Positions 9,139 to 43,927 of a stretch of DNA of 53,008 nt are shown here, piece by piece. Source of the stretch: Salinivenus iranica (lineage in GTDB: Bacteria; Bacteroidota; Rhodothermia; Rhodothermales; Salinibacteraceae); NCBI GenBank assembly GCA_002894665.1, contig NCRB01000016.1:1-53008 (forward strand). The letters are read 5' to 3'. Position numbers and translations under genes: made by a program. The stretch's first letter is position 1. Every line of letters begins with the position of its first letter. The notes under the pieces are model-generated. The model searched no databases and was not told the DNA's origin. It worked only from the letters and a program-made list of their open reading frames with translations.

Positions 9139-9233
9139 GGAATACAAGACTTGATGGGCTCGGTCCGAAGGCCGTCGGCACGACTCTGCGATTGTGTTAC
9201 GCCATACGAGCGCCCGCCTCTTCTGGTGCCCGC

Positions 9234-10007: not shown

Positions 10008-11347
10008 GACGAAATCTCCGGAATAGTGACGGAACGAGCGTAGACGACGTACCAGCCCGCCGTGGCGAGCAGGATCCCGCCCCCGATTGCAATCGACAGC
10101 AGGTTCATGAAGGCCACGAGCCCAAAGCTCGTGAGAGCGCCGAGAACGGGCACGACCGGATGCCCGGGACACCGAAAGTCGGGCGCGTAGCCGTCGGGCG
10201 GCGCGTGGCGCAACACGAGCAGGGCCACGCAGATGAGGCCGTACATGAAGAGGTGGAGCAGCGAGGCGACCTCCGCCAGCACCTCCACCCGCCCGAAGAG
10301 GATGAGGCCCACGATGGGCCCCCCGGCCAGCAGCAGGGCCACGTGCGGCGTGCGGTAGCGCCGGTTGATGCGCTCGACCCGGTCGGGGACGAGGTCGTCC
10401 CGGCTCAGAGCGTAGATGGACCGGGACGCGCTGAGAATCGACGCGTTGGCGCTCGACAGCGTGGCGAGCAGCCCGCCCCCAAGCAGGGCGGCGGCCCCAA
10501 ACGCCCCCGCAATGCTGCGCCCCACGTTCACGACGGCCGTCTCGCCCATCTCCGCGAGCTGCTCGCTCCCCAGCAGGCTGGTGCTCACAAAGATGGTAAG
10601 GACATAGAGGGTGCCCACGAGCACGACACTCCCAATCATGGCCCGGGGCAGGTTGCGCCCCGGCTCCTTGATCTCGCCCGCCACGGTGGCGATTTGCACG
10701 AAGCCGAGATAGGACGTAAACACCAGCGCCGCGGTCGTGAAGACGGGAAGGGTACCATACGGGAAAAACGCCTCCGGCACCTGCGCCCGCCCAAAGACAC
10801 CGAGCGCATCCAGCCCGCCGTGGCCCAGGAAGCCCGCGAGGATGGCGAGCAAGCTCGCCACGATCCAGTTCTGCAGGTCGCCCGTGTTCTCGGTGCCCGT
10901 GATGCTGATGCCCGTGAGCAGGATCGCCATGCCGAGGGCAAGGCCCACGACGGACAGGGGCAGGTCGACCCCGAGCTCACGGACGAGGTCGGACAAGTAG
11001 TGCCCGAATCCCATCAGGTAGAAGGCGGACGCGAACACGAGTCCGATCCACTGTCCGAGGCCCACCATGGTGCCAAGCAGCGGCCCCAGGGCCCGCGAGA
11101 CGAAGTAGTAGCCCCCGCCGCTCTCCGGCATGGCCGTCGCGAGCTCCGAGGTGGGAAGCGCCACCATGAGAGCGATGACGGCCCCCAGGGCGAAAGAGAG
11201 CATGGCGGCGGGCCCGGCCTCGCCCGCCGCCAGGCCCGGAAAGACGAAGATTCCGGCCCCGACCATCGTCCCCGTCCCGATGGCCAACGCGGGCAGCAGG
11301 CCCAGCGTGCGCTCCAGTTCGTTCTGATCGGCGGGCGACTCCGGCAC
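10004..11347 (-). CDS. APC-family amino-acid permease
   Basis: Encodes 447 residues with about 12 hydrophobic helices. The N terminus holds the APC signature LAIGTGTMVGAGIFVFPG, part of the amine-binding unwound helix. Later blocks such as EIKEPGRNLPRAM and SSANASILSASRSIYALSRD are typical of the cationic amino-acid transporter and GABA permease group. The C terminus ends within the membrane part plus a short tail, with no Usp domain. The next gene, overlapping by four bases, is a stand-alone tandem Usp, so permease and Usp here are split while in the neighbour upstream they are fused. The substrate is not determined. Confidence 0.92.
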   Translation of the reverse strand: MPESPADQNELERTLGLLPALAIGTGTMVGAGIFVFPGLAAGEAGPAAMLSFALGAVIALMVALPTSELATAMPESGGGYYFVSRALGPLLGTMVGLGQWIGLVFASAFYLMGFGHYLSDLVRELGVDLPLSVVGLALGMAILLTGISITGTENTGDLQNWIVASLLAILAGFLGHGGLDALGVFGRAQVPEAFFPYGTLPVFTTAALVFTSYLGFVQIATVAGEIKEPGRNLPRAMIGSVVLVGTLYVLTIFVSTSLLGSEQLAEMGETAVVNVGRSIAGAFGAAALLGGGLLATLSSANASILSASRSIYALSRDDLVPDRVERINRRYRTPHVALLLAGGPIVGLILFGRVEVLAEVASLLHLFMYGLICVALLVLRHAPPDGYAPDFRCPGHPVVPVLGALTSFGLVAFMNLLSIAIGGGILLATAGWYVVYARSVTIPEISS

Positions 11348-23629: not shown

Positions 23630-23683
23630 TGATGCGTGAGGAGGCTAATCTCCCGTCGATCACGCTTCACAAATCACGCATCA
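23630..23683. repeat. Inverted repeat TGATGCGTGA at the 3' end of proS
   Basis: TGATGCGTGA (23630-23639) and TCACGCATCA (23674-23683) are perfect inverted 10-mers around a 34-base loop that includes a related string ATCACGCTTCAC. The right arm overlaps the proS stop codon. It may form a 3' stem-loop for proS, but there is no T-run on the minus strand. Confidence 0.6.
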
Positions 23684-25153
23684 GTACGCCTGGGCAAAGA
23701 GCACGCGGCCCTCGGACGGCTCGCCCGTGACCATGTCGACGCCCGTCTCGTCGTTCTCGCGGTCAAAGGGAATGAGGCGGATTGTCGCTGAGGTTTCCTC
23801 CTGGATGCGGGCCTCGGTCTCCTCGGTGCCGTCCCAGTGCGCCCACACGAAGCCGCCGTCTTCGATGACCTCCTGGAAGGCGTCGTAGTCGTCGACGACG
23901 TGGGTGTTGTCCTCGTAGCGCGCCTGGGCCTGGTCGTAGAGGCCCTGCTGCACTTCGTCGAGCAGGTCGAGCACCCGGTCCACGATGCCGTCCTGCGGCA
24001 CCACGTCCTTCGTCTGGGTGTCGCGGCGGGCCACCTCGACGTTGTCGTTCTCCAGGTCGCGCGGGCCCACGGCGAGGCGCACCGGCACGCCCCGCACCTC
24101 GTGCTCGCTGAAGCGCCAACCGGGGCTCTGCGTGTGGTTGTCGTCCATCTTCACGCGAATGCCCTGGCCCTCCAACTTCTCCCGAAGCTGCTCGCACTTC
24201 TTCATGACCGGCTGTTCCTGGTCGTCGTCGAAGAAGAGGGGCACGATCACGACCTGATGCGGCGCCAGCTTGGGCGGCAGCACGAGGCCCTGGTCGTCGG
24301 AATGGGTCATGATGAGGCCGCCGATGAGGCGCGTCGAGACGCCCCACGAGGTGGCCCAGACGTAGGACTCTTCGTTGTTCTCGTCGGTGAACGTGCAGTC
24401 GAACGCCTTCGCAAAGTTCTGCCCGAGGAAGTGGCTGGTGCCCGCCTGCAGCGCCTTGCCGTCCTGCATGAGCGCCTCAATGCAGTAGGTGTCCACCGCG
24501 CCGGGAAACCGCTCGCTGGCCGTCTTGCGGCCCTGCATCACCGGCATCGCCATGTAGTCCTCCGCAAACGTGGTGTAGACGTCCAGCATCCGCTCGGCCT
24601 CTTCGACGGCCTCCTCGCGCGTGGCGTGGGCGGTGTGGCCCTCCTGCCACAGAAACTCGGCGGTGCGCAGAAAGAGACGCGGCCGCATCTCCCACCGCAC
24701 CACGTTGGCCCACTGGTTGTAGAGCAGCGGCAGGTCGCGGTACGACTGGATCCACTTGCTGTACGTGTCCCAGATGATGGTCTCGGAGGTGGGACGCACG
24801 ATGTAATTCTCGCCCAGCTTCGAGTCCGGGTCCGGGATCAGGTTGCCCTCCTCATCCTGCGTGAGGCGCGAGTGGGTGACCACCGCGCACTCTTTGGCGA
24901 AGCCCTCCACGTGCTCGGCCTCCCGCTCCATGAAGCGCTCCGGGATGAAGAGCGGAAAGTAGTAGTTCTCGTGGCCCGTGTCCTTGAACATCTGGTCCAG
25001 TTGGTCCCGCATATTCTCCCACAGGGCCATGCCGTTGGGCTTGATGATCATGCACCCGCGGGCGGGGGAGTTTTCGGCCAGCTGGCCGTTGCGGACCACA
25101 TCTTGATACCACTGCGAATAATCCTCGTCGCGGGGAGTGACGGCGTCGGCCAT
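23681..25153 (-). CDS. proS: Prolyl-tRNA synthetase, archaeal/eukaryotic type
   Basis: Encodes 490 residues, matching the short ProRS type without the bacterial editing insertion. Class II motif 2 is visible ([20 protein letters not shown]) and motif 3 lies near [20 protein letters not shown], followed by the anticodon-binding domain ([13 protein letters not shown] ...) and the C-terminal zinc-like domain ending VLFAQAY. It charges tRNA-Pro with proline in the cytoplasm. The start ATG at 25153 is followed by the usual [12 protein letters not shown] opening. A 185-base leader with a hairpin lies between a candidate promoter and the start. Confidence 0.97.
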
Positions 25154-25185
25154 GGGCGTCGGGGGGTCTCGTGTAACAGATACGG

Positions 25186-25220
25186 AAAAGCCTCACGGGC
25201 CGAGGGGTACCCTCTGAGGC
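25186..25220 (-). promoter_or_regulatory. Hairpin in the proS leader, terminator-like
   Basis: On the minus strand GCCTCA (25220-25215) pairs with TGAGGC (25195-25190). Inside is a second stem GAGGG/CCCTC closing a three-base loop, and the outer stem is followed by TTTT (25189-25186). No upstream minus-strand gene would need a terminator here, so it may act as an attenuator or structured leader for proS. No riboswitch class is recognised. Confidence 0.5.
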
Positions 25221-25337
25221 CGCAAGGGGACAGGTACCAACGTAGGCCCCATCCGATGCGCTTTTCAACGGCGATCCGCGGTGTTCGTCGTTTCTCCAGA
25301 TCTGTCGCCCCGCCTCCTCTTTGGAAACACCCTTCAT

Positions 25338-25368
25338 CAAATCTCATTCTTTCCGTGCATGTCTCCAA
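25338..25368 (-). promoter_or_regulatory. Candidate promoter of proS
   Basis: On the minus strand TTG (25368-25366, within TTTTG) is followed after 20 bases by GAGATTTG (25345-25338), seven of eight to TAnnTTTG. It would give a proS leader of roughly 180 bases. It lies close to the divergent lipoprotein start at 25388. Confidence 0.45.
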
Positions 25369-25387
25369 AAAGTGGGTGCAAAATGGT

Positions 25388-26737
25388 ATGTCATTTTTCT
25401 TTCGGGGACTCTCACGGGACAATGCACTTCCTCTCTTTGCGCCCCTCGTGCTCGCCCTGGCACTGACGGGCTGTTACACGAAGCTCGGGACGGTGGCTTC
25501 CTCGGAGTCCACGCTGGAGCAGACAACGACCGACGCACCGGCTGTTTCGGAGGAGACCCCGCCTTCCGACGTCGCCGACCGCACGCAGTCGTCCAGCACG
25601 GACACGCAAGACGCCGTCGACGACTTCTTCCAGGACGTTGACCATTATACCCTAGAGTACCTGGACGCCTCCGACCGGGCCCTTGTGAAGCAGGCGACCC
25701 GCCTGCTGAAGGAGCGATCCGACAGTGAGATTAGTCGCTCAACGTACCGGGAACGGCTCAACAACTTCAGGCTGGACCACCCGGGCTTCTACGGAAACTT
25801 CTTTGGAGACCCTCTCTACGCCACGTACGATCTCCGGTACACCCGTCTGGCCGAACTCCGACAGCGGATCGACACGTTTATTAACCCGCAAAATAGCGTC
25901 CGAAGTACGGCGAGCTTCTACTGCAGTCCCTATTCGTACGACCCCAACTTTGGAGGCCTCTGCAGTGGGCTTCAGTACACGTCCGCGGATTTCTTTTTCC
26001 TTCCGTCCGGCTCCTTCGACCCGGCGCAGGCCCTCCCCTCCCGGCCGAACGCCTCCTTCGCCGTCGCCTCGCGGCTGTCTGATCAGCGTGCCACGATGAA
26101 GCACGGTGCGGACAGCCACACCCTCAACTCGGAAGAAGAGCGTCCGCGCGAAAACGCTCCTGCCCTCTTGTCCGCGGACGCCTCGTCGAAGGACCGAGAG
26201 GCGACGCTCGACGTGCCCTCGGAGATCGAGACGCTCTCGAGTGAAGAGGTTGCGTCGTTGACCGAATCCGTCCGCGAGGGACTGTCCCCGCAAGAGCGGG
26301 TGGTCCTGCTTCAGCATCTGCACACGCAGCGCGTCGGTCCCTCCGGCCGGTCGTCCACTCCGTCTCGGGCGGCCGAGGGCGATCTCGGTCTGCGTGTGGA
26401 GACGATTCGGCGGGCGTCCCGCGGACAGCTGTACGGCAGCCGCTCGGGCGGTCGAGCGTCCCCCTCCGACGCGTCCGACTCGCCGTTCAGTGACGTGCGT
26501 TCGTCCGAGCTTCTCGACCGCCTGGAGCGTCGGCGGGGACGAACCGCCGGTTCCGCGACCGCCGACCCATCCGCCTCCGGAGGCGATCGCTCCCGTGGTC
26601 CAACGGGCCGTTCCATCAGGGATCGGGCGTCGCCCGATTCCGGCTCCTCATCGTCCGGACGGTCGGTGGACTCGTCGGACTCCGACGGAGAGTCGTCCTC
26701 GTCCGGCCGCACGGGACGCGAAGACTCTGACCGGTAG
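25388..26737 (+). CDS. Lipoprotein with LTGCYT start and disordered Arg/Ser-rich tail (copy 1)
   Basis: Encodes 449 residues from the ATG at 25388. The same frame runs far upstream as an antisense shadow of proS, so the start was placed at the signal sequence. The lipobox is ALTGC (Cys29). Residues 80-240 contain a helical part (ALVKQATRLLKERSDSEI) and a Tyr/Phe-rich part with two cysteines (CSPYSYDPNFGGLCSG). After about 250 the sequence becomes Ser/Arg/Asp/Glu-rich and probably unfolded, ending in DSDR. No family is recognised. It shares the LTGCYTxL start and acidic-basic tail with the next gene on the same strand, so the two appear to be paralogues. Outer-membrane attachment is inferred. 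Confidence 0.75.
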   Translation: MSFFFRGLSRDNALPLFAPLVLALALTGCYTKLGTVASSESTLEQTTTDAPAVSEETPPSDVADRTQSSSTDTQDAVDDFFQDVDHYTLEYLDASDRALVKQATRLLKERSDSEISRSTYRERLNNFRLDHPGFYGNFFGDPLYATYDLRYTRLAELRQRIDTFINPQNSVRSTASFYCSPYSYDPNFGGLCSGLQYTSADFFFLPSGSFDPAQALPSRPNASFAVASRLSDQRATMKHGADSHTLNSEEERPRENAPALLSADASSKDREATLDVPSEIETLSSEEVASLTESVREGLSPQERVVLLQHLHTQRVGPSGRSSTPSRAAEGDLGLRVETIRRASRGQLYGSRSGGRASPSDASDSPFSDVRSSELLDRLERRRGRTAGSATADPSASGGDRSRGPTGRSIRDRASPDSGSSSSGRSVDSSDSDGESSSSGRTGREDSDR

Positions 26738-27095
26738 ACGATTCGGAGGCTACGGACCGATTGCACGAGAGGCGGGCCGACCCCGATCGGGGAAGGGGGG
26801 CGGCCGCCCAACCGTTGGATTTCATCTCTGTAGTGTCCCTTTCCCTGGACGGTCGCCCTCCCCGAACGGGGACTGATGTCCCCCGCCCCTCCTTCCCGCC
26901 TCCCTTTCCGGCGGGAATTGTTACTACAGCCCCTCTCATTGCGGCTTCTTCAGTGAACGGCGGAAAGTCCGCATGAGATTTGCTCCTTTGTCGTTGTACT
27001 CTGCCGTTCCGAGCGAGCCTCGCTCGGTAACTTTTGGCGAGTCCTCGCGTACAAGAGTGACATCGTCTGCCACCTATCCTGCCGGGGTGATTATT
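26738..27095. other. Intergenic region between the two LTGCYT lipoprotein genes
   Basis: These 358 bases contain no convincing gene. Features seen are CCCCGATCGGGG at 26781-26792, a near copy CCCCGAACGGGG near 26870, and the perfect palindrome at 27009-27027 next to TAACTTTTGG. The frame in front of the second lipoprotein is open from 26973, but this is judged to be leader because the ribosome binding site points to 27096. Confidence 0.5.
27009..27027. promoter_or_regulatory. Perfect palindrome upstream of the second LTGCYT lipoprotein
   Basis: CCGAGCGAG / CTCGCTCGG with a single central C forms a 19-base perfect dyad, followed immediately by TAACTTTTGG, an off-by-one version of the TAnnTTTG element. 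It could be an operator or a short hairpin about 70 bases before the start codon. Confidence 0.4.
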
Positions 27096-28496
27096 ATGAT
27101 TCACGCTTCGTTCTGGACCCGCTCGCTGAGGGGCTGGGTCCCTTCCGTTCTTCTCGTGGTGCTCTCCCTGGGACTCACGGGCTGCTACACGCAGCTTCAG
27201 ACGGCTGACACTGGCCGCTCGGCCCCGGACAAGCAGCAAACCCGCCCCGCGGACCGGGCGGAGGCGCCGCAGTACGCCGATGAGTACCGCCGCGAATACC
27301 GCGACGGCGTGGGGGTGCGCTACGACGATCGCTACGACGAGATGGCCTACGCGGACGAGTACGAATACCTGTACGAGTACAAGTACAAATACAAGTACGG
27401 CGCGCCGTACCGGTACCACACCTCCTTCCACGACTGGTACTACGACCCGTTCTACCACGACTCATTCTATCCTTCCGGGACGCGCTTCTCGCTGTCGTTC
27501 CACTTCGGGTCGCCGTTCTACTACCACCGGCCGTGGCGCTACTCCTCGTGGCACCGCTACGGGTACTCACCCTTCGGCCCGCGCTACTACACGAACAATT
27601 ACTACTACTTCGACGACGACTTCGATGAGGATCGGTCGTTTGCGGGCCGCACGTACCGTCCGCGCGGCGGCACCGTAGGCCAGAGCACGCGCGACGTCGT
27701 CTCCCGCGACGCGGGCGAGGCGCGCCGCGCCGCACGCCGGTCGGCCCCGACGAACGACAACGCTCGCATTGGGCGGTCGGTACGCGGAAGCGATCGGGAC
27801 GACACCCCGCGCCGGGCCACGACGGGAAGGGCCTCGTCGGATCGGACCGGCAACGGACGGGTGGGTCGGGCCACGCGCCCCGGCCGAACCGACAACGACC
27901 GCGGATCGAACCGCACGGTCCGGGAGCGCGAGCCTGAGCGCACGCCGGAACGCCGAACGGGCCGTCGAAGCGGACGCGACACCGACAACGGAAACAACCG
28001 TGCCCGCACCAATCGGGCACGGGCCGACCAGGCCGCTCGCCCGATGAGGGGGGCTGAGCGGAATGCCCGCGACGGGAACAGTGCCGCCCCGCGGTTCCGG
28101 CGCGACAGCACCGGACGACTTCGATCAGAGGCGGTGCGCCCCGCACCCACGGGACGCATCGGTCCCGCCCGCACGTCTCGGATCGAGAGCCGGTTGGACC
28201 TCGACCAGCTCCGCCGCGACCAGCTTCGGTACGAGCAACTCCGAGAAAATCGGCTGCGAGAGCGACGAGAACGAACCTCCCGGGAGTGGACGTCTGAGTC
28301 CTGGAACGCCCCCGAGCCCCGGACGCGCTCGGGCCGCACCCGCACCACACCGGAGCGCTCGACCTCGCCCCGCGCCCGCTCCTCGTCCTCGGATGACTCG
28401 GGCACCCAGGCCCGCGGCTCCCGTTCCTCCGGATCGTCAAGCGACTCGGACCGCGGCGGCCGACGGGGCCGAAGCGACGATGACGGGGATCGGTAG
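27096..28496 (+). CDS. Lipoprotein with LTGCYT start, Tyr-rich core and Arg-rich tail (copy 2)
   Basis: Encodes 466 residues from the ATG at 27096, with GGGGTGA five bases upstream. The lipobox is GLTGC (Cys30), followed by YTQL. Residues 55-175 are extraordinarily rich in Tyr, Asp, Phe and His (EYLYEYKYKYKYGAPYRYH). From about 180 to the end the protein is dominated by Arg, Ser, Thr, Asp and Asn and is presumably disordered, ending in DDDGDR. The positive charge is unusual among the acidic proteins around it. No family is recognised. Its relation to the preceding gene is supported by the shared lipobox context and SDSD plus DR terminus. A FadL-like gene follows 134 bases downstream. Confidence 0.8.
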   Translation: MIHASFWTRSLRGWVPSVLLVVLSLGLTGCYTQLQTADTGRSAPDKQQTRPADRAEAPQYADEYRREYRDGVGVRYDDRYDEMAYADEYEYLYEYKYKYKYGAPYRYHTSFHDWYYDPFYHDSFYPSGTRFSLSFHFGSPFYYHRPWRYSSWHRYGYSPFGPRYYTNNYYYFDDDFDEDRSFAGRTYRPRGGTVGQSTRDVVSRDAGEARRAARRSAPTNDNARIGRSVRGSDRDDTPRRATTGRASSDRTGNGRVGRATRPGRTDNDRGSNRTVREREPERTPERRTGRRSGRDTDNGNNRARTNRARADQAARPMRGAERNARDGNSAAPRFRRDSTGRLRSEAVRPAPTGRIGPARTSRIESRLDLDQLRRDQLRYEQLRENRLRERRERTSREWTSESWNAPEPRTRSGRTRTTPERSTSPRARSSSSDDSGTQARGSRSSGSSSDSDRGGRRGRSDDDGDR

Positions 28497-28630
28497 CCGC
28501 CCGGCGACGCTTGTCTTTCGGGCCCTCCAGCTCGCCCCACCAGGGGCTTTTCCCACAACCTGACCCGGGACCGTGCCCCCGGTGTGTCTGCCCCCGACGC
28601 TCCCCTTTCGGACCAACCCTCCCCTCCTCC

Positions 28631-30271
28631 ATGCTCCTGCCCCTGCTGCCGTCTCCCGCTCGCCTCCTCGCCGCGCTGGGCGGCGGCCTGCTCCTCGCCC
28701 TCGCCGCACTGCCCGTCCAGGCCCAAACGGCCGACGACGCCCTGCGACTCTCCCTCCGGGAGCCCGCCGTCGGCGCACGCGCCCTGGGCATGAGCGGCGC
28801 CGGCACCGCCGGCTGGGCCGACCTGAGCGCCCTGTACACGAATCCGGCGGGCTTGGGCTTCTACGAAACCTCCGAGTTTGCGGGCAGCATGAGCCTTCTG
28901 AGCGCCACCGACGATGCGTCGTACCAGGTGGGCAGCGCCTCCCGCTTCGGGCGGGACGGCTCGGCGTCGTCGGTCCGCCTCGGCTCTTTCGCCGGGGTCT
29001 ACCGCGCCCCCACCGCGCAGGGGTCCCTCGTCCTCGCCCTCGGCTTCACGCAGACGAGCACGTTCGACCGCACCCTTCGCTACCGCGGCGAGAACGCGCA
29101 AAACTCCATCACGCAGTTCCTCCTTCCCGCCTTCGCCGAGGGGAACGAGTGGAGCGTCGACAACGACGGCCTCCCGGTCGTGAATCCGATTGTCCCCTTC
29201 GTCGGGTTTGCGGGCGGGGCCACCGAGTTCTTTGGCGGCGACTACCAGGCCGGGGAGTACCCGTTCGAGCCCGCCGTTCTTCCCGGCAGACGCATCGTGC
29301 AGGAAGGCACCGTACAACGTGAGGGGCGCCTCAATGAACTAAACTTCGGCGGCGCCGTCGCGATCGCCCCGGGCGTGATGACGGGCGCGACGGCCAACAT
29401 CACGTTCGGCCGCTACTTTTTCGAGAACGAGGTCGTGGAAATTGACGCCTTTGGCGAAAATGAGGGGTACGAGGTCGACGGCGACCTCGACGGCGCCTCG
29501 GACCGATTCGGGCTCGACACCGTCACGTTCCGGGAAAACTTTGAGTCGGACCTGACGGGCTTCAACCTGCGGCTGGGCCTCTCGGCCGACCTCACCTCCA
29601 CCGTGCGCCTCGGGCTGACGGTGGAGACGCCCACGTGGACCAGTATCGATGAGGACTTTACCGACGCGTTCGTGCGAACGACCTTTCTCGACGGGGCCCC
29701 GCTGGCCTACGGGGACGACCCGGACGAGGACGAGGCCCGAGGCACCTTCGAGTACAACGTGCGCAGCCCCTGGCGCTACGGCGCCGGGCTGGCGTACGAC
29801 ACCGGACGCCTCCGCGTGACCGCCGACGTGGAGTTTGTGAACTGGGAAACCCTGGAGCTCGACTCCGAATCGTTTGACTTCCCCGTCGCCAATGAAACCA
29901 TCGAGGACGACTTCCGCGCCGTATTCAACTGGCGCGGCGGCGTTGAGTACCGGTTCCGCGGCGGCCTCACGGCACGGGGCGGCGCCGCGTACCGCCCCGA
30001 CCCTCGCTCGTTTGAGATCACCACCCTCGACGGCGAAACGACGGACCGGGCCCGCACCTTCTTCTCGCTTGGGCTCAGCTATCCCTTCAGCGACCAGCTC
30101 ATCCTGGACGCGGGCTGGATGCAGGAGCGCACGCAGGATCAGTTCCAGCCGTACCCCCAGCCCGACCCCTCGCTCGTCCAGAACGGCATCGTGGAGGGCA
30201 CCCCCCCGCCGGTCATCGACGAGGATGTGATCCGCAACCAGTTCCAGGTGGGCGTGCGGTACCAGTTCTAA
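28631..30271 (+). CDS. OmpP1/FadL-like outer-membrane protein
   Basis: Encodes 546 residues from the ATG at 28631. The earlier part of the open frame lacks a signal sequence. The signal peptide ends at VQAQ (about 32). The mature start DDALRLSLREPAVGARALGMSGAG and ALYTNPAGLGFYE is the typical N-terminal hatch of FadL/OmpP1/TodX barrels, followed by alternating beta strands and a terminal VGVRYQF with the C-terminal Phe of outer-membrane proteins. FadL-type proteins admit hydrophobic compounds. The substrate here is unknown. The family also resembles PorV of the type IX system, but I see no reason to prefer that. It is convergent with mltG, six bases between the stops. Confidence 0.88.
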   Translation: MLLPLLPSPARLLAALGGGLLLALAALPVQAQTADDALRLSLREPAVGARALGMSGAGTAGWADLSALYTNPAGLGFYETSEFAGSMSLLSATDDASYQVGSASRFGRDGSASSVRLGSFAGVYRAPTAQGSLVLALGFTQTSTFDRTLRYRGENAQNSITQFLLPAFAEGNEWSVDNDGLPVVNPIVPFVGFAGGATEFFGGDYQAGEYPFEPAVLPGRRIVQEGTVQREGRLNELNFGGAVAIAPGVMTGATANITFGRYFFENEVVEIDAFGENEGYEVDGDLDGASDRFGLDTVTFRENFESDLTGFNLRLGLSADLTSTVRLGLTVETPTWTSIDEDFTDAFVRTTFLDGAPLAYGDDPDEDEARGTFEYNVRSPWRYGAGLAYDTGRLRVTADVEFVNWETLELDSESFDFPVANETIEDDFRAVFNWRGGVEYRFRGGLTARGGAAYRPDPRSFEITTLDGETTDRARTFFSLGLSYPFSDQLILDAGWMQERTQDQFQPYPQPDPSLVQNGIVEGTPPPVIDEDVIRNQFQVGVRYQF

Positions 30272-30277
30272 CCGCAA

Positions 30278-31318
30278 CTACCGCGAGTTCTCCTCCGCCC
30301 GCCGCTCCAGGCGGCGCTGGTACTTGTCCGCGGCGCGGTTGTGCTCCCGCAGGGTGCGGCTAAAGGTGTGTCCCCCGTCGCCCGTCGCCGCAAAGTAGTA
30401 GTAGTCGTGCTGCGCGGGCTGCGCGGCGGCGCGGAGCGACGAGGGCGACGGGTTGGTGATGGGCCCCGGCGGCAGGCCGCGAACCTGGTAGGTGTTGTAG
30501 GGGTGGTCGATCTCCAGGTCGTCGTAGAGCACGCGCCGCGTGCGCTCCCCCTCGGTCTGGAGGAGCACGTACTGGATCGTAGGATCGGCCTGCAGGCGCC
30601 AGCCGTCGCGGAGGCGGTTCACATACACCCCGGCGATCTTGGGCTTCTCCTCATCGAGCAACGCCTCCCACTCCACGATGGACGCCAGCGTGATAACCGC
30701 CTGCTTCGAGAGGCCGAGGCTGTCGGCCCCGGCGGCCAGCTCGCGCTCGTAGAACCGATCGAACGACGCCTTCACGCGGCGCACCACCCGCGCGGGCGAG
30801 GTGTGCCAGTAGAGCTCGTACGTCTCCGGCATCATGTATCCAAACAGCTGCTCCGGCGTCGTGCCCAGCTCGCGGGCGAGGCTCGTGTCGCGCAGGGCCG
30901 TCCGGAACGCTTGGGGCGTCAGTTCAAGGCGGCGCCCCACGACCTGGGCCATCGTCTCGGGCCGCGTGCCGGGCGGGATCGTCAGGCGCACCGGGTCCTG
31001 GAGGCCGCGCCGGAGGCGGTCGAGGAGGTGGTAGTTCGACTGCCCGCCCCGAATGCGATAGTGGCCGGCCTTCATCTGATCGCCCCACCCGGTCACGGTT
31101 GCCAGCAGCCGGAACGTGGACGGGGCGGCGAGAATGTCCTGGGCCTGCAGCGAGTCGATCGTTGCCTCCAGCGTCGCGTCGCGGGGCACGATGACGCTGC
31201 GTGGCGTATCGGGCGTCGTGTTGGGGCCAAACACCAACAATCCACCGCCGCCAAGCCCAATCCCGCTGAGGAGCAGGCACGAGGCCGCAACAACGACCAG
31301 GGCACGACGGGTCAGCAT
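30278..31318 (-). CDS. mltG: Endolytic murein transglycosylase MltG (YceG-like)
   Basis: Encodes 346 residues, the normal size. One N-terminal transmembrane helix (about 8-30) is followed by a LysM-like region and the YceG domain. The catalytic motif LASIVEWEA places the active Glu at residue 216, and downstream KIAGVYVNRLRDGWRLQADPTIQY is the usual substrate-cleft sequence. The enzyme cleaves nascent peptidoglycan strands in the periplasm and sets glycan length. It lies directly upstream of nothing on its strand except tsaD 95 bases before its start, so both may be transcribed together. Confidence 0.96.
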   Translation of the reverse strand: MLTRRALVVVAASCLLLSGIGLGGGGLLVFGPNTTPDTPRSVIVPRDATLEATIDSLQAQDILAAPSTFRLLATVTGWGDQMKAGHYRIRGGQSNYHLLDRLRRGLQDPVRLTIPPGTRPETMAQVVGRRLELTPQAFRTALRDTSLARELGTTPEQLFGYMMPETYELYWHTSPARVVRRVKASFDRFYERELAAGADSLGLSKQAVITLASIVEWEALLDEEKPKIAGVYVNRLRDGWRLQADPTIQYVLLQTEGERTRRVLYDDLEIDHPYNTYQVRGLPPGPITNPSPSSLRAAAQPAQHDYYYFAATGDGGHTFSRTLREHNRAADKYQRRLERRAEENSR

Positions 31319-36175: not shown

Positions 36176-39100
36176 TTAGTTTTGGGAAATGTTGACCGTC
36201 ACATTGAAATTCCCGTTCACGTTCGTGTAGGACGGCTGTCGGCTGTCCCCCTGAAAGTCCTCGTACTCCAGCGTAAAGTCGGCCGTTACACGATCGCTAA
36301 TGCTGTAGGAGATCTGCGGCTGCACCGTGAGCCGTTCCGTTTCGCTGATGATCGACACATTGTCGCCCTGCTGCGCCTGGCGGGGGTCGTACTCGGGTCC
36401 GGCGCCGTTGGCCTGTTCGAGGGCGGGACGCAGGTTGTATTCGCGCTCGTCGTTCACCTGCTGGGTGAAGGTGACGGAGAGCTGCACGCGGTTTTCGATG
36501 CGGCCGAACGGGAGAAACGGAATGGTGAACCCCTGCGCGGTGTAGGAGAGCTGCCCGGAAATCTCACTCGTCTCCCGCTCCGCAATCCGCAGGCTGGCGG
36601 TGCGAAGCGAGGTGGTCGTCCGCCGGCTCCACTCCACGCTCGTCTGCAGGTTGCCGGGCCAGGTGATGTCGACCCCCACCAGCGGACTGTACTCCTCCTG
36701 CAGCTGGGGCGAGCCGAGCTGAAATGCCGACCGGCGGTACGCAAAGGGCGTGCCCCCCTCTTGCCCCCCGACCGTGAGGGTCGCCCCCTCGCCCGCAATG
36801 TTTGAACGTTCGAAACTGGTCTCGTACGTCGCATTGTAGCCGTGCCGGAGGGAAATGCTCTCGGTAATGCTGCGGATCAGCGGCCAGTCGGACAGGCCTG
36901 TGTAGCGCACCGTCCACCCCGGCATCGGAAACGGCGCAAACCCGTTGGCGAGGCCGGTGCCGCCGCCCGTGAGGTACCCGCTGCGGAAGTCGGCGGTCAC
37001 CGAAGCGTTGGTGAGGGGGACGCTGGCGGCCGCAAGGGTGTCCTCGCTTCCTGCCTGGGCCCGAAGCCTGCCGAGCTGTTGTTCAAAGAACGAGCCGAAC
37101 GACCCAAAGGCCCACACCGACGCGCTCGTCTGTCCACGTTCGGACCGCGACCGCGCGATCCCGTCTTCGGTTTTGCGAAAGCTGACCTGCGGGCTTGAGC
37201 TCCAGCTCAGGTTCCAGTTCAGGTCCACGTCCAAGGCCGGGCTCGGCGACAGCGTGGTGCTGCCCTCAAGGTCGTGCTCGTCGGTAAGGTTGTCGACCAC
37301 CCGCTGCCCTTCCGGAAAGACGCGCCCCCCCGACTCCGGGGCAATGGAGCGGTCGAGCCCCAACCGGTAGCCGAGGGACGGCCCCTCGCCCCGAACGGCA
37401 TCGAGCAGCCGGTACTTTTTGTCCACCTGCTCGATGCCCCCGTCGTTGAGCGTGGCGTCGCCGACGTTGGAGGAGCGGGACGTACGCGTGCCGTTGTAGT
37501 TGACCGTAAGGTCGTCAATGTCCAGGACCGTGAGGGCAAGGCCCCGGAGCAGCCCGACGGGGTCGGGGAGCGGCACGTCGCTCCACTCGACGCCCCCGTC
37601 CTCCTCTTCGTCCCCCTCCGGCGCCGGCCGATCGTCGCTCCGCTGGGCCTCCCGCATGCGCTCGAAGAAGCCGAACCGCTCCCAGACCCGATTCGGGCGC
37701 AGGCTCACGCCCGTCCGCAGCGTGCCCTCGTTGCGGACGCTGGCCCCCGTGTTGCTTCCCTGCGAGCTGTTCTGCCAGCCGAAGGACGACTGGTAGGAGA
37801 TGTCCTGCACGTCGATCCAGTTGAACACGTCGCGGTCCAACAGCCCCACCTGCAGCGTCGTGGAGAAGCGCTGGCTGTACTGGTTGGTCCGCGGGCTGGC
37901 GTCCCCGAACACGAGATCCTGAAACACCTCCCACTCCGACCGCCACTGCTGTCGGTCCTCCACGAAAAGGGTCGTGCCGAGGCTGTCGCGCGCACTGTTC
38001 TGATACACATCCGGCAGGTCCGGGAGGACGGCCTGCGGGTCATTGAAGAAGGCGGCGGTGTCGACCCCGGCCACCACCTGTCGGCCCAGTGCCGAGTTGT
38101 CCGAGAGGAGGAGGTTGCGCTGCGTCCGGCGGGCCACGTCGTCCAGGCTCTGCCGCGTGTCGGTGTCGAAACTGAAGCTGAGGAACTGGAAGGGGCTGTA
38201 CTGCAGGTTGAAGCGGCGTTGGTGGGTGAAGTCCTGGTTGTCGCGGAAGGGGCTGGCGATGCGGGGCGGCTGTGCGCGGTCGCGCCGGGCCGAGAGGCGG
38301 CTGCGCCGGGTGGTGGCGTTGCGCTCGGCGGTCCCGGTAAAGGAGAGCGAAGACGGCACGTAGTTGAAGTCCACGTCGCCGAGGAGGCCGAGGACGGGCA
38401 CCTCCGGGAGAAACCAGAGGGGCTCGACGGTGCGCGGCTGCCCAAAGTCGAGCTGGTACTCCAGCGTGCTGCTCCAATTCCACTGGTTGTCGATGCTGCG
38501 CTGCGGGCTGCGTGCCGTCCGATCGAAGTACGAGAAGTTCAGGGCCGTTGCGTCGACGGTCTGCCGCATGAGCCAGGCATCCGACCCCTGCTTCGAGAAA
38601 TTGGCCGTGAGTGTGCGCCGCACGTTGGCGGTCTCGGAGGCCCGGCGCACGCTGTCCTGGAGGGCCTCTCGCAGCTGACGTGTCGACCACTGGTCGGGGT
38701 AGCGGTCGCCGAACCGGGTCTCCAGGGAGTCCGCGTTCAGGCTCCCAAACAGCTGCTGCACCTCCCGCACCTCAATGTCGCCCCGCTCCGGATCGTAGCG
38801 CGGCTCGGTAAGGCTCGACTGCATCTGCAGCGTAACGGGGATGTTCCACCCCTCCTGCTGCGGAAACAGGGCCCCGAGCTCCAGGTCGGCCCGCACGTTC
38901 CAGCTCGTGTTGCCGGAAGATTCGCGCTCGTTTAGGGTGCTGTTGAGGCCGCCGAAGCCGTCGGTGCGACGCTGAAAGCTGCCCTGAAGCGATGCAAGGT
39001 CGGCCAGCTCAATGTCGGCCGTGGTGTTTGCCGCCCAGCCCGAGCGCTCATCGTAGCCGCTCACCCGAAGCTCGTTCACCCACAGGTCGATGTTTTCGAG

Positions 39101-42100
39101 CGCCCGGTCGCCGCTCTCGCCCACGTGACGAATCCCGACGACGGCCGTGCTGATCTCGTTCAGGGACGGCGTCCCTCGGATTTTGATGGTCGTGCTGCTA
39201 TCGGGGGCAAAGTCGAGGGGCAGGCCCGCGTCATCGCTCGTGTACACGGAGTCGGGCGAGACGGGGCTCTGGTCCCGGGCCGTCTTGAGTTGCGATAGGG
39301 CGCTGAGCAGAAGGTTCATCTCGTTTTCTTCGCGCCAGAGGCGCTGGCTTCCGGAGGCACTCGGCACGTCGTTGGGCTCCAGGCGCTGTTCGTACTCGTA
39401 ATAGTCGTCCGTTTCGTTCGCCCCGATGCGGACGAACAGGCGCAGGTTTTCGCGGATGTTGTCTTTCACCTGCGGGCTGTTCGACGGGCCGTGCACGTGG
39501 GTGTACATCCGCAGGTTGGAGTACTTCAGCAGGTTGAGCCCCTGAAACGACTTGAAGATGCCGCGCTGTCGTCCCGGAGTCAGCTCGTCGATGCCGAGGA
39601 GCAGAGACTGCTCGCGGTTGCGGCGCTGCGCTCCGCGGGAGGTCTGACTCCGGCTTACGATGGCGCCGACCGGCGCCTGGTACTGCGGGTCCTCCTCGTT
39701 GTTGATGCTCGCGACGCGCACCTCCCCGTCCCCCGGATCCATCACGTCGCCCTCGTCGACGGGCTGCTCGGCCACGGGCTGGGAGGCGCGCCACTGGCTG
39801 CCCACCAGCTCGAACGAGGCAAACCGCATGGTCACCGGCGCGGCGTGGCCCGTGGTCCAGAGGCGGATGGACTCGATGCGCGTAAAGTCCTGAATGTTGC
39901 CCACGGTGCGGGTCGGCTCCTCCACCGGAATGCGGATCTTGTACCAGTCCTGCCCCTCGCCCACCCGACTGACCACGTAGTCGGTGGGCCCGGAGTCGCG
40001 CCCCGCCCGCTCCCGCAGTTCGTCCAGCGGGATGGCGTACTGGTAGTAGTCGTTGGCGAGGGTGACGTTGCCCCCCGTGCCGTCGAGGTCTTCCGTGTCC
40101 GGCGAGCGGGCCACTCCCCGGCGCAACGATACATCCTCGGCGAGTTGATTCTGAGACTCGAAGCCGTTGAGCTCGATTCCGGCGTAGTAGCGGCTGAAGC
40201 GTTGCTGGAGCGTGGCGCCTCGCGGGAAGAACCGCTCCTCACTGAAGTAGCGGTCGTTCTCGTAGTACTGGTAGTCGTCGGCGGAGGGGTCGTCCTGAAT
40301 GCGCGCGACCTCGGCCCGCAGCCGCCGGCGCTCCGCGTCCGTGAGGCCCAGTTGGCCGAGGGCGTCGCGGAGACTATCGGCCCGCTCGACAAAGTCGGAG
40401 TAGAAGTTCGTCTCCAGCAACTCCGGGGCGTACGTGCCGCCCTCGGTGTAGGACACAAGGCCGTCGAGCCCCAGGTCTTCCGTCCTCCCGTCCCGAATGT
40501 CGATGGCGCCGTTCTGCGAGGGGCTGCCCGCAATGCGGCTCAGCTCGCCCAGCTCGCTGGGGTTGAAGGTGGTGGAGAGCCCGTCCTCCGTGTTCAGCCG
40601 CTCGTTGGGCACCACGTCCTCGGAGATGGTGCCGAGGTCGAGGTACAGCATGGCGTCGTCGCTGACCTCCCCGTTCTGTGGGTACACCTTCACGATGAAC
40701 TCGACAAACTCCACGTTCTGCACCGAGAAGTCGGTGTATCCCTCGGGCATCCGTCGCGTGATGCCGCCCCACACCTGGGTCGGGTTCTGAATGAAGTCCT
40801 CCAGGTTGGGCGTGTAGTTGTAGGGCCCGCGCATCCACGGATTGAAGTACACGTCGAGGGTGCGGAGGGTGGGGTTGGCCGTCCCTCGGGTGTCCCGGTT
40901 GAACACCTCGCGGATGTCGAGGAGGCGGGTGGCCTCTTCCGGGCCGCGCGGCTCCACCTTGCCCTCCAGTTGCTCCTTGATCTGCTCGTTGAGCTGGTAC
41001 CACCCAAAGCTGCCCCGCCAGTACGTGCGCGCCTGGTCGTCCTCGTTTCCCGGCCCGTCGCCGTTCAGCTGGGGCGCCTCGCCGATCGAGTCGGGCGCGG
41101 CACTCACCTGCCAGGCATTCAGCTGCTCGCGCAGGGAGAACGTGTTCTCGAAGCCCTCGAAGTCGTCGATGTACGAGATGCCGTTGCGCTCGTCCGACGC
41201 GAAGCTCTCCCGCTCGCTGCCCGCCACCTCCTCAATCGTGCGCTCGTAGGCCTCCGTCTGGGTGTGCCCCGGGCGGAGCTGGGCAAACTCGCCGCTGATC
41301 GACAGCCGGCTCTCGGCGCGCGTTTCGATGAGCGGAAGGGCATCGACGGCCTGCGTGAGCCAGCGGGGCGTCAGGTCCATCGAACCGTTCACGCCCCAAA
41401 TGGTGTTCTTGACGGGCTCCTCGCCCACCCGGTACTTGTCGACGGGCGACTTCTGACTCAGTCGCATAATCGTTGCGCCCAGCGAATACTGGTCCCGCAG
41501 GCTCCAGTCCGCCCGGGCGCCCAGCAACGTCTTCTGCTGAAGGTCGGCGATGCTGTTCTGCTCGTACGAGATGTCGATCTCGCGCCCCTCGGCGAGGTAC
41601 GACTGGTTGGTGATGTTCACGGTCCCGCTCTGGTAGTCGACCACGTAGTCGGTCCCTTCCTGCAGGGTTTGGCCCCCGGAGGTGACCTCCACCGAGCCTT
41701 CCACCAGCCCGGCAAATGCCTGCAGGTCGTAAAAGCCCTGTGTCTGCCCTTTGTAGGAGCCGGAGACGGTGTAGACGTTTTTCTGTTTGTCTTCCTTCTC
41801 GGCGTTCGTCTTCTTCTTGAGGTACAGGTTCTGAAAGGCAAACGGCTCGCCGTCGGCGCGGCTGCCGTTGGCCTCGGCCACGTCGAGGATGCGGTCGCCG
41901 AAGGGCCGGAGGTACGGGAAGTAGAGGAGGCCCTGGTCGGCATCGATGGTGAGCGGCGTGAAGTCGAACTGATTGTCGGGGCTGGGCGCCCCATTCTCGT
42001 TGATGCGGTCGAGCCCCAGCACCTGGAGGAGCGTCTGCTGATTGGCAATTTCGGGGATCGTGGTGCTTGCCCCCTGCCCCGACGGATCGTACTCGATGTC

Positions 42101-43927
42101 GAGCTCAAAGCTGTTGGAGTCGAAGCCGCGCCCGCCCAGCCGGTAGATGTTGCGCATCTCCAGGAACCAGGCGGCCGGTTCGGAGGCAGCGTTCGCGCCC
42201 GGGGCCACCGGGTCATTGGGACGCAGCAGCTTCAACACCAGCCGGTCGGCGTTGATGCCCCCGTCCGTGCCGCCCTGATCCCCCGCAAAGTCGCCGACCG
42301 TGCGCACCTCGCCGCCGGCCCGGTAGCGAAACGCGACCGCGAGTGCCTCTCCGGAGCGCAGGCGCTGGCTGAGGGAGAGGAAGCCCAGTCGCTCGTCGAG
42401 GCGGTAGTCCCGCCCGCGCTGCAGCCGTTTGAAGTCGCCGGACACCACGTCCTGCGAGCTGAGGCTCTGCCCCAAATTCGCCGACACGTAGTTCGAGACG
42501 GTGGTCTGCCCGTCCCGGAGATTGTCCAGGTCCGACTCGGTGTACTGGTCCACCCGGGGGCCCGGCAGCTCCTGCGCCGTGTAGTCGTCCGCCTCCCGCA
42601 CGAGGGCCGCCGGCTCCCCCAGGTCCACCACGGCTGCGGCCTTCCGCACGTCCGAGTCGTTGGGCCCCGTGGAGGTGCGCAGCTTCCACACCTCCACGTC
42701 CGTAATCTGGTCGAAGCCGTTGAGGAGCGTGATCGTCGTGGGATCCTGGTGGGCTTCGTTCCACGTGTTGCGGAAGTAGTAGCCGAGAAAGAAGTGGGTG
42801 TCCTCGTCGTAGTTGGTCGGCTGCAGATCAAACTCGGTGCTCTCGGAGCCGCCCTCAATAGAGAGGCTGTTGGACTGTCCCTCCTGTTGGCTCGCAATGG
42901 TGGTGAGGCTCAGGTTGCCGAGCTGGAACTGGCTCTTGATGCCGAAGAGGCTCTGCCCGCCGCTGATGAGCTGCGAGGGCGTTTCCAAAAACACGTTGCC
43001 CGCCTCCACGCTCTGCACAATTTCGTCCTCGTACCCGCTGTACTCCAGCTTCACCTGGTTCTGATAGTCGAACTGGTTGTTGGTGTCCCAGTCGACGTTC
43101 ATCTGCAGCTTGTCCCCAATCGTGCCGGTGATGCCCAGGCGCAGGTCCTGCTTGAAGTTGGGGTCGATCTGCGTCGCGTCGCCGGTGCGGGCCCCCTGCT
43201 GGTCATTCTTGCTGTACTGGAACCCCGCCTGAATGTCGGCCTGCCCGTTGACGCGCAGGTCCACCTCCGGCTTGCCGAAGATGGTGGAGAACGTGCTCTG
43301 GCGCCCTCCGGGCACCACCATGTTCACCCCGAGCCCGCTCCGATCCACCTGCTGCTGTCGCTGCTGGAGGAGCGACGTCCAGTTCTCGCGCAGGGCGGCC
43401 TGTTGCCGGTGGCGCCGGTACGTGTCGGCGTCGAGGCGCATGGGCCCCTCCGTGCGGCGCGTGTCTTCGACTCGGTAGCTGGTGCCGCTGGAGTCGAGGG
43501 TGACGCGGGGCCCGTGCCCCGACGCGTCGGCCGGGGAGACAAAGGGCGAGGGATCGTCGAACAGCTCCCTTCGGCCCCGCCGCACCGGCACGTAGCGATC
43601 AATACGGGCGGTGTCGACAGCTACCGTGTCGGCGGCCTCCCCGCCTGCCTCGCCGAGGCGGGCGCCCCCGGCTCGCTCTCGAAGCGAGGGGCCCTCCGGG
43701 ACCGGGGCCAGCGGGGCCACGTTGCCCCGCAGCGAATCGGCCCCGCTGCTGTCCGCCACCGGGCGGTCTTGTGCCCGGGCGTCGGACGGGCCGAGGGCCG
43801 GAAGCAGCCCCCACGTCAGCACCACCAGAAGGGAGACGAACCGTCGGACGAACCGCCTCTCCTCCCTCCGTCGCCGGAGCGGGCCGAGCCAAATGAAACG
43901 CAGAACGAAAGGCACGGGGACAACCAA
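36176..43927 (-). CDS. sprA: SprA-type outer-membrane translocon of the type IX secretion system
   Basis: Encodes about 2583 residues, slightly larger than known SprA proteins (roughly 2300-2500). A signal region with basic residues and a hydrophobic stretch lies near residues 28-52 (ending ARAQ). No ATG begins the frame. The first possible start is a TTG at 43927, and a GTG a few codons later is equally plausible. Typical SprA sequence includes LGVNMVVPGGRQSTFSTIFGKPEVDLRVNGQADIQAGF and VQSVEAGNVFLETPSQLISG. SprA is a 36-strand barrel that passes C-terminal-domain substrates across the outer membrane. Other T9SS components (PorV, SprE, GldKLMN) are not in the window. The gene is preceded by 244 bases and the next gene upstream is the saccharopine-dehydrogenase-like one. 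Confidence 0.92.
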   Translation of the reverse strand: MVVPVPFVLRFIWLGPLRRRREERRFVRRFVSLLVVLTWGLLPALGPSDARAQDRPVADSSGADSLRGNVAPLAPVPEGPSLRERAGGARLGEAGGEAADTVAVDTARIDRYVPVRRGRRELFDDPSPFVSPADASGHGPRVTLDSSGTSYRVEDTRRTEGPMRLDADTYRRHRQQAALRENWTSLLQQRQQQVDRSGLGVNMVVPGGRQSTFSTIFGKPEVDLRVNGQADIQAGFQYSKNDQQGARTGDATQIDPNFKQDLRLGITGTIGDKLQMNVDWDTNNQFDYQNQVKLEYSGYEDEIVQSVEAGNVFLETPSQLISGGQSLFGIKSQFQLGNLSLTTIASQQEGQSNSLSIEGGSESTEFDLQPTNYDEDTHFFLGYYFRNTWNEAHQDPTTITLLNGFDQITDVEVWKLRTSTGPNDSDVRKAAAVVDLGEPAALVREADDYTAQELPGPRVDQYTESDLDNLRDGQTTVSNYVSANLGQSLSSQDVVSGDFKRLQRGRDYRLDERLGFLSLSQRLRSGEALAVAFRYRAGGEVRTVGDFAGDQGGTDGGINADRLVLKLLRPNDPVAPGANAASEPAAWFLEMRNIYRLGGRGFDSNSFELDIEYDPSGQGASTTIPEIANQQTLLQVLGLDRINENGAPSPDNQFDFTPLTIDADQGLLYFPYLRPFGDRILDVAEANGSRADGEPFAFQNLYLKKKTNAEKEDKQKNVYTVSGSYKGQTQGFYDLQAFAGLVEGSVEVTSGGQTLQEGTDYVVDYQSGTVNITNQSYLAEGREIDISYEQNSIADLQQKTLLGARADWSLRDQYSLGATIMRLSQKSPVDKYRVGEEPVKNTIWGVNGSMDLTPRWLTQAVDALPLIETRAESRLSISGEFAQLRPGHTQTEAYERTIEEVAGSERESFASDERNGISYIDDFEGFENTFSLREQLNAWQVSAAPDSIGEAPQLNGDGPGNEDDQARTYWRGSFGWYQLNEQIKEQLEGKVEPRGPEEATRLLDIREVFNRDTRGTANPTLRTLDVYFNPWMRGPYNYTPNLEDFIQNPTQVWGGITRRMPEGYTDFSVQNVEFVEFIVKVYPQNGEVSDDAMLYLDLGTISEDVVPNERLNTEDGLSTTFNPSELGELSRIAGSPSQNGAIDIRDGRTEDLGLDGLVSYTEGGTYAPELLETNFYSDFVERADSLRDALGQLGLTDAERRRLRAEVARIQDDPSADDYQYYENDRYFSEERFFPRGATLQQRFSRYYAGIELNGFESQNQLAEDVSLRRGVARSPDTEDLDGTGGNVTLANDYYQYAIPLDELRERAGRDSGPTDYVVSRVGEGQDWYKIRIPVEEPTRTVGNIQDFTRIESIRLWTTGHAAPVTMRFASFELVGSQWRASQPVAEQPVDEGDVMDPGDGEVRVASINNEEDPQYQAPVGAIVSRSQTSRGAQRRNREQSLLLGIDELTPGRQRGIFKSFQGLNLLKYSNLRMYTHVHGPSNSPQVKDNIRENLRLFVRIGANETDDYYEYEQRLEPNDVPSASGSQRLWREENEMNLLLSALSQLKTARDQSPVSPDSVYTSDDAGLPLDFAPDSSTTIKIRGTPSLNEISTAVVGIRHVGESGDRALENIDLWVNELRVSGYDERSGWAANTTADIELADLASLQGSFQRRTDGFGGLNSTLNERESSGNTSWNVRADLELGALFPQQEGWNIPVTLQMQSSLTEPRYDPERGDIEVREVQQLFGSLNADSLETRFGDRYPDQWSTRQLREALQDSVRRASETANVRRTLTANFSKQGSDAWLMRQTVDATALNFSYFDRTARSPQRSIDNQWNWSSTLEYQLDFGQPRTVEPLWFLPEVPVLGLLGDVDFNYVPSSLSFTGTAERNATTRRSRLSARRDRAQPPRIASPFRDNQDFTHQRRFNLQYSPFQFLSFSFDTDTRQSLDDVARRTQRNLLLSDNSALGRQVVAGVDTAAFFNDPQAVLPDLPDVYQNSARDSLGTTLFVEDRQQWRSEWEVFQDLVFGDASPRTNQYSQRFSTTLQVGLLDRDVFNWIDVQDISYQSSFGWQNSSQGSNTGASVRNEGTLRTGVSLRPNRVWERFGFFERMREAQRSDDRPAPEGDEEEDGGVEWSDVPLPDPVGLLRGLALTVLDIDDLTVNYNGTRTSRSSNVGDATLNDGGIEQVDKKYRLLDAVRGEGPSLGYRLGLDRSIAPESGGRVFPEGQRVVDNLTDEHDLEGSTTLSPSPALDVDLNWNLSWSSSPQVSFRKTEDGIARSRSERGQTSASVWAFGSFGSFFEQQLGRLRAQAGSEDTLAAASVPLTNASVTADFRSGYLTGGGTGLANGFAPFPMPGWTVRYTGLSDWPLIRSITESISLRHGYNATYETSFERSNIAGEGATLTVGGQEGGTPFAYRRSAFQLGSPQLQEEYSPLVGVDITWPGNLQTSVEWSRRTTTSLRTASLRIAERETSEISGQLSYTAQGFTIPFLPFGRIENRVQLSVTFTQQVNDEREYNLRPALEQANGAGPEYDPRQAQQGDNVSIISETERLTVQPQISYSISDRVTADFTLEYEDFQGDSRQPSYTNVNGNFNVTVNISQN

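Follow-up and report, generated by a model that had tools for sequence, protein, structure and literature searches.

Bacterial lipoproteins are marked by a signal peptide followed by a lipobox that ends in a Cys. In E. coli, the lipoprotein RcsF is reportedly held in beta-barrel proteins, and for the FadL/TodX channels (PF03349) we know of no lipoprotein partner. A lipoprotein and a FadL-fold barrel are combined in the BamH–BamG pair, as described in the parts of two reports covered here (PMC12611786, PMC12578637). According to the covered part of one of them, the conserved N-terminus of BamH lodges between two strands of BamG, in contact with the conserved BamG N-terminus, and BamH is portrayed as a scaffold over BamA with the shape of a crescent (PMC12578637). 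In the present study, we analyzed a stretch of 53,008 nucleotides from Salinivenus iranica (assembly GCA_002894665.1, contig NCRB01000016.1), hereafter the window, in which the genes for two predicted lipoproteins, LipA and LipB, are followed by the gene for a FadL-fold outer-membrane barrel. The LipB and barrel genes were found to be paired across much of Bacteroidota, which suggests an unrecognized outer-membrane complex. We propose, with a probability of about 50%, that LipB and the barrel form such a complex on the BamH–BamG plan, as a separate pair.

Pairing of the LipB and Barrel Genes across Bacteroidota

Pairing was scored on stop-to-stop open reading frames (ORFs): a lipoprotein ORF counted as paired if a FadL-fold ORF on the same strand lay -700 to 1500 nt downstream of it. 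The loci were stretches around matches of a 35-row LipB profile; 99 lipoprotein ORFs were kept and 3 were dropped by the motif filter. Genomes and loci are numbered G and L, respectively; G000 is the window genome and G001 the closest relative compared. A FadL-fold ORF was found downstream of 90 of the 99 GCYT-type lipoprotein ORFs and, counted by genome, in 85 of 88. The three unpaired genomes were G329 and G115, where the contig ended, and G186, where the barrel lay on another contig. The nine unpaired ORFs were LipA of G001, five second copies (L153, L233, L246, L277, and L278), two ORFs at contig ends (L162 and L250), and L167 of G186. At the order level, a FadL-fold gene followed LipB in 18 of 19 loci, and the proline-tRNA ligase gene proS was present in 15. 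The CYT motif occurred in 88 of the 93 lipobox ORFs near a barrel versus 8 of 57 elsewhere, a comparison that is partly circular because the loci were picked with the LipB profile; the eight were seven second copies or contig-end family members and one ORF in L299. These results indicated that the LipB–barrel gene pairing is well supported and that the conserved unit is LipB with the FadL-fold barrel, LipA being an extra. An earlier reading of this DNA made by a model without database searches (the sequence-only reading) had suggested that the two lipoproteins may be a pair for surface adhesion or polymer binding and had named the absence of either gene from close relatives as evidence against it. 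Among the 13 genus genomes, LipA was detected in 3 and LipB in 12, so that the two lipoproteins did not stand as a conserved unit, and the conserved partner proved to be the barrel. The suggested role at the surface has to be set beside the lack of the usual surface-export signal. A literature search of titles and abstract openings returned no report of a LipB–barrel pair, and the motif GCYTQL was not mentioned in the literature searched.

At E ≤ 1e-15, the barrel profile matched 174 of the 247 phylum genomes; the LipB profile matched 91. We chose 20 distant loci around the barrel, from 19 genomes with no match to the LipB profile and from G186. An aromatic-rich ORF occupied the place upstream of the barrel in 18 of the 20, the exceptions being L293 and L302, and all 18 exceeded the 99th percentile of a background of 962 ORFs of at least 250 aa, spurious ORFs included. 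In a small search, the LipB profile matched 6 of these 18 ORFs at E < 1e-3. A lipobox was found in 15 of the 18 genes (in L299, on a separate ORF just upstream), and proS was divergent in 14 of the 20 loci, as in the window. Therefore, the association of an aromatic protein with the barrel extends far beyond Rhodothermales, and GCYTQL and proS are each only partly kept.

Identity of the Barrel

The barrel passed the gathering cut-off of Pfam Toluene_X (PF03349), with 42.6 versus 29.7 bits. An AlphaFold2 model built from 19 rows had a mean predicted local distance difference test (pLDDT) score of 81.9. In VIA-align comparisons, the predicted barrel matched CymD 6z34 (Z 35.2, root-mean-square deviation (rmsd) 3.4, 336 aligned), FadL 3pgs_B (Z 34.0, rmsd 3.5, 367 aligned), and the F. 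johnsoniae BAM chain 9n2d_B (Z 32.3, rmsd 3.7, 351 aligned). FadL and TodX-type channels ranged over Z 31.1–35.2, and 9n2d_B, 9hiv_F, and 9hjm_F, taken as BamG, over Z 32.0–32.4. The type 9 secretion system (T9SS) chains 8gl6_F (Z 25.7, rmsd 7.0, 300 aligned) and 6h3i_F (Z 25.6, rmsd 5.4, 288 aligned), presumably PorV, were also matched. Against PDB sequences, the barrel profile returned 15 matches at E ≤ 0.1, which included FadL and TbuX chains and no BamG chain. Residues N71, P72, A73, G74, and L75 were invariant in the 19 barrel rows. Judged by the predicted model and the alignment, the protein is a FadL-type barrel with an NPA hatch motif, and it has both fold and motif in common with the FadL/TodX channels. 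Its N-tail, with a conserved Q...DALR.S before the NPAG motif, appears to differ from that of FadL in being longer. The tail before NPA was 39 residues in 53 of 79 partners and in 12 of 17 distant ones and 42–48 residues in all 18 BamG proteins measured; for E. coli FadL, a length of 32 follows from N33 in the title of a mutant entry, with mature numbering assumed.

The barrel could be a FadL-type importer of hydrophobic compounds, with LipB as an aromatic brush that concentrates the substrate at the lateral opening. The top structural matches are indeed hydrocarbon and fatty-acid channels (CymD, TbuX, TodX, and FadL), and the matches to FadL and TbuX chains by sequence, the Toluene_X score, and the invariant NPAGL point the same way. 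However, the BAM chains were matched nearly equally well, and thus the fold does not settle transport. In addition, a barrel present in 174 of 247 phylum genomes is more readily explained by a housekeeping function than by the uptake of a particular substrate, and the N-tail appears to exceed that of FadL in length. An importer is, on this evidence, an improbable explanation.

Against the BamG model NF053685, the window barrel scored 34.2 bits, below the curated cut-off of 250 bits, a cut-off that also misses the clear BamG of G000 (219.7 bits, contig C101). In a quick tree that left out other FadL relatives, including BamG2, 77 partners and 22 BamG proteins fell on opposite sides of a branch with a support of 100 in the Shimodaira–Hasegawa-like approximate likelihood-ratio test (SH-aLRT). 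The identification of the window barrel as BamG was ruled out by the separate clear BamG on C101 and by the split in the tree. A lipoprotein gene lies directly upstream of that bamG (L184:7498-8880 and 8899-10278) and encodes a candidate BamH by position; its product had no Pfam, NCBIfam, or PDB sequence match.

Another explanation is that the pair is an accessory module of BAM or of the T9SS, whose clients would be outer-membrane or secreted proteins and not small molecules. FadL-fold proteins serve both machineries (BamG; chains 8gl6_F and 6h3i_F), and the window carries sprA some 6 kb downstream of the barrel. Across 247 genomes, the barrel and SprA were both present in 170, the barrel alone in 4, SprA alone in 20, and neither in 53, a distribution that would fit a role beside the T9SS. 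However, 19 of the 20 SprA-negative genomes listed belong to one family, f25 (a further 37 SprA-negative genomes were unlisted), so the co-occurrence is confounded by descent. The BAM subunits named in the covered parts of the two reports (A, D, G, H, M, P; A, D, G to K) also include no such disordered lipoprotein (PMC12611786, PMC12578637). We consider a role as such a module unlikely.

Composition and Distribution of LipB

A hydrophobic signal stretch precedes LTGCYTKL in LipA and LTGCYTQL in LipB, and the LTGC of both fits the lipobox pattern. Both proteins share LTGCYTxL and end in DR, as the sequence-only reading had described. That reading had also assigned Tyr/Phe-rich middle regions to both proteins; LipB is Tyr-rich, with 29% Tyr+Trp (38% with Phe) in its best 100 residues versus 16% at the background 99th percentile, and LipA is not (10%; 20% with Phe). 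The description of LipB as very basic among acidic proteins was partly borne out: its isoelectric point (pI) is 10.3, and six of the nine other ORFs have a pI of 4.2–5.4, but three are basic, namely mltG (9.3), up2 (9.4), and a 181-aa ORF (12.0) that may be no gene. Therefore, the charge of LipB is unusual but not alone. Relative to G001, the ratio of nonsynonymous to synonymous substitution rates (dN/dS) was about 0.32 for LipA (0.10 in residues 90-225), 0.27 for LipB (0.25 in the tail), and 0.16 for the barrel, indicating that all three are kept as proteins by purifying selection.

Neither lipoprotein scored above Pfam or NCBIfam cut-offs, consistent with the earlier statement that they have no recognized family, and none of the LipB-family lipoproteins rose above cut-off when 28 proteins were scanned with Pfam and 20 with NCBIfam. 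Within the genus, the single genome lacking LipB is 62% complete. A GCYTQ lipoprotein was present in 19 of the 20 relative loci fetched, the twentieth (L050) having been chosen for a weak LipA match. G, C, Y, T, and Q were invariant across 20 aligned order-level rows, and CYT was invariant in 35 phylum-level rows. In the family, the stretch after the motif contained 20–35% Y/F/W, the tail contained 14–32% Arg and 0–3% Lys, and the last 60 residues were net positive in 110 of 112. Of the 146 class genomes, 90 were matched by the order-level profile; of the 247 sampled phylum genomes, it matched 51 and the wider 35-row profile 91. By its sequence, LipB is the local member of a widespread family of predicted lipoproteins without a family name, and the earlier suggestion of an undescribed lipoprotein holds for it.

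The AlphaFold2 model of LipB had a mean pLDDT of 45.9, with 370 of the 466 residues below 50, and only the signal helix and a helix at residues 363-397 were confident. A known fold for LipB was rejected, as the 35-row profile had no match in PDB sequences at E ≤ 1 and AlphaFold2 gave no fold; the LipB model itself was not run against the structure library. In L299 (3697-5097), a GCYTQF lipoprotein ORF is followed by a separate ORF with an aromatic stretch, as if a LipB relative had been split.

Proposed LipB–Barrel Complex

Docking like that of BamH on BamG is proposed because each pair combines a lipoprotein whose N-terminus is conserved with a barrel whose conserved N-tail appears to be longer than that of FadL. 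A further likeness lies in gene order: the locus numbers of the paralogues Bt1786/Bt1785 in the covered part of the source suggest neighboring genes, and the bamG of G000 is directly preceded by a lipoprotein gene. The differences are that the LipB partner is separate from BamG in the tree, that G000 has its own BamG, and that LipB is predicted to be disordered and has no acidic export signal, in contrast to the crescent-shaped BamH. With RcsF, LipB would have in common that a segment of an outer-membrane lipoprotein is held by a beta-barrel, although the threading of LipB is put forward here only as an idea.

In the proposed mechanism, LipB, once exported, would receive its lipid on the GCYTQL Cys and reach the outer membrane, where its invariant first residues and the lipid would dock on the barrel with its conserved N-tail. 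The rest of LipB would form an unfolded chain in place of the BamH crescent, with the aromatic stretch near the membrane, followed by the long Arg/Ser tail. LipB may act as a tether or a sticky brush of Tyr and Arg residues that is fixed at the barrel. We infer the lipidation of LipB, its docking on the barrel, the side of the membrane it faces, and the ligand of its chain. A pair that runs from Rhodothermales to distant Bacteroidota, with one half lacking a family name, points to an outer-membrane part that was overlooked because the lipoprotein is of low complexity and drifts fast. It would provide a second lipoprotein/FadL-barrel pair to compare with BamH/BamG and a case of a disordered, probably lipid-anchored chain kept across a phylum.

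Several observations weigh against this proposal. Neighbors in an operon need not bind each other, and contact between LipB and the barrel is argued from gene pairing and analogy. The upstream genes of L291, L292, and L295 encode a plain signal peptide without a lipobox; therefore, lipid docking cannot be universal. Other distant upstream genes have different N-termini, such as CGSYQN and CSTxx. The partner N-tail fell within the BamG range in 15 of 79 cases, some of them through a start set by the script. The reach of the 35-row profile leans on the lipobox and biased composition because it was built from motif-carrying matches, and low AlphaFold2 confidence is common for low-complexity chains. 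A divergent proS was found in only 21 of 89 main-set barrel loci, in stretches of differing length; therefore, the wider proS synteny is patchy rather than general. Finally, the surface-export rule for Bacteroidota lipoproteins, given in the covered part of the report as at least two acidic residues among the first six after the Cys (PMC12578637), failed in all 99 GCYT-type lipoproteins, of which 83 had no acidic residue there and 16 had one; therefore, LipB may face the periplasm.

In an alternative arrangement, LipB would face the periplasm and tether the barrel by binding an anionic polymer of the envelope through its Arg-rich tail, and the aromatic stretch would serve as a spacer. The missing export signal, the net positive C-terminal 60 residues in 110 of 112, and the three non-lipidated secreted forms would all fit. 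However, the rule was derived from Bacteroidia and may fail in Rhodothermia, where the lipoprotein 5' of the G000 bamG has only one acidic residue among the first six, and why a spacer should be aromatic is not obvious. We hold this arrangement to be doubtful.

The proposal of a LipB–barrel complex could also be taken further, to a general Bacteroidota complex in which the barrel holds a lipidated, fully disordered Tyr/Arg chain that forms a phase-separated or adhesive layer through sticker chemistry, with optional second lipoproteins, some with CxxCH, in some lineages. Such an extension is speculative, and we would give it little chance of being right in full.

Features of the Locus

The features of the locus are listed in Table 1. 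In several other Rhodothermales, sprA was located 6-13 kb from the barrel. An Rfam scan of positions 25100-30400 at gathering scores matched no RNA element. The palindrome between the two lipoprotein genes pointed out by the sequence-only reading is real and 19 nt long. It had one genomic site at ≤2 mismatches, was identical in G001, and was matched in 11 of 302 loci, all copies coming from the window genome or G001. A promoter scan found no promoter and listed the palindrome as a terminator-like site.

Table 1. Features of the LipA–LipB–barrel locus and its neighbors (window positions).
Feature	Position	Strand	Basis or remark
LipA, acidic predicted lipoprotein of 449 aa (LTGCYTKL); extra gene restricted to its lineage	25388-26737	+	ORF
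LipA lipobox and next residues, LTGCYTKL	25463-25486	+	Codon counting
LipA middle domain, residues 90-225	25655-26062	+	dN/dS ~0.10; present in G000, G001, G005
Perfect palindrome, 9-bp arms, 1-nt center, 5' of LipB	27009-27027	.	Single site in genome; also in G001
LipB, predicted lipoprotein of 466 aa, basic, rich in Tyr and Arg, predicted to be disordered; belongs to a family found in much of Bacteroidota	27096-28496	+	ORF
LipB lipobox and conserved mature N-terminus, LTGCYTQL	27174-27197	+	Alignment; codon counting
LipB aromatic-rich stretch, residues 60-196, 36% Y/F/W/H	27273-27683	+	Composition
LipB tail rich in Arg (26%) and Ser, with 0% Lys; disorder predicted throughout apart from a helix at residues 363-397	27684-28493	+	
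FadL-fold outer-membrane barrel, conserved neighbor and proposed partner of LipB, not BamG	28631-30271	+	
proS (proline-tRNA ligase), divergent neighbor	23681-25153	-	TIGR00408 above cut-off
SprA (T9SS translocon), ~6 kb downstream of barrel	36188-43480	-	Above cut-off

LipA and Tandem Lipoproteins

LipA has a pI of 5.1, contains no CxxCH motif, and matched no Pfam or NCBIfam family above cut-off. With its own genome counted, 3 of the 13 genus genomes contained the whole protein, and the genomes without it include one that is 62% and two that are 83% complete. The middle domain was found in 2 of 146 class genomes, a sample that does not contain G005. In G005, a LipA relative (L035:10809-11990) lies between proS and LipB and has a plain signal peptide without the CYT lipobox. 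Weak matches in G014 (E 1.2e-5) and G021 (E 3.6e-4) were not upheld on inspection. Beyond the lipoprotein N-terminus, the bodies of LipA and LipB differ, middle domains included; the order-level LipB profile matched LipA over positions 14-109 at E 4e-5, and the 35-row profile matched it at E 1e-5. LipA is a local add-on with a LipB-like lipoprotein N-terminus and not a conserved twin, because it is acidic, not Tyr-rich, and far rarer in the genus than LipB. A tandem duplication whose products act as a pair is very improbable: the common LTGCYTxL, the profile matches, and ten other barrel loci with at least two GCYT-type lipoproteins speak for it, but the middle domains differ, the G005 relative lacks the CYT lipobox, and LipA is confined to 3 of 13 genus genomes.

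At least two GCYT-type lipoproteins were encoded upstream in 13 of the 86 barrel ORFs that had one within 3.5 kb. These were the window and G001 (with LipA), L175 (two tandem lipoprotein–barrel pairs), and ten cases in other lineages. In five tandem loci (L221, L223, L231, L248, and L253), the lipoprotein nearest the barrel, located between the LipB relative and the barrel, carried a CxxCH motif, which is possibly a haem site. The CxxCH lipoproteins of L221, L231, L248, and L253 had no Pfam match. Two LipB–barrel pairs in a row were observed in L175 (G141, family f18) and in L135, from a Balneolaceae metagenome-assembled genome.

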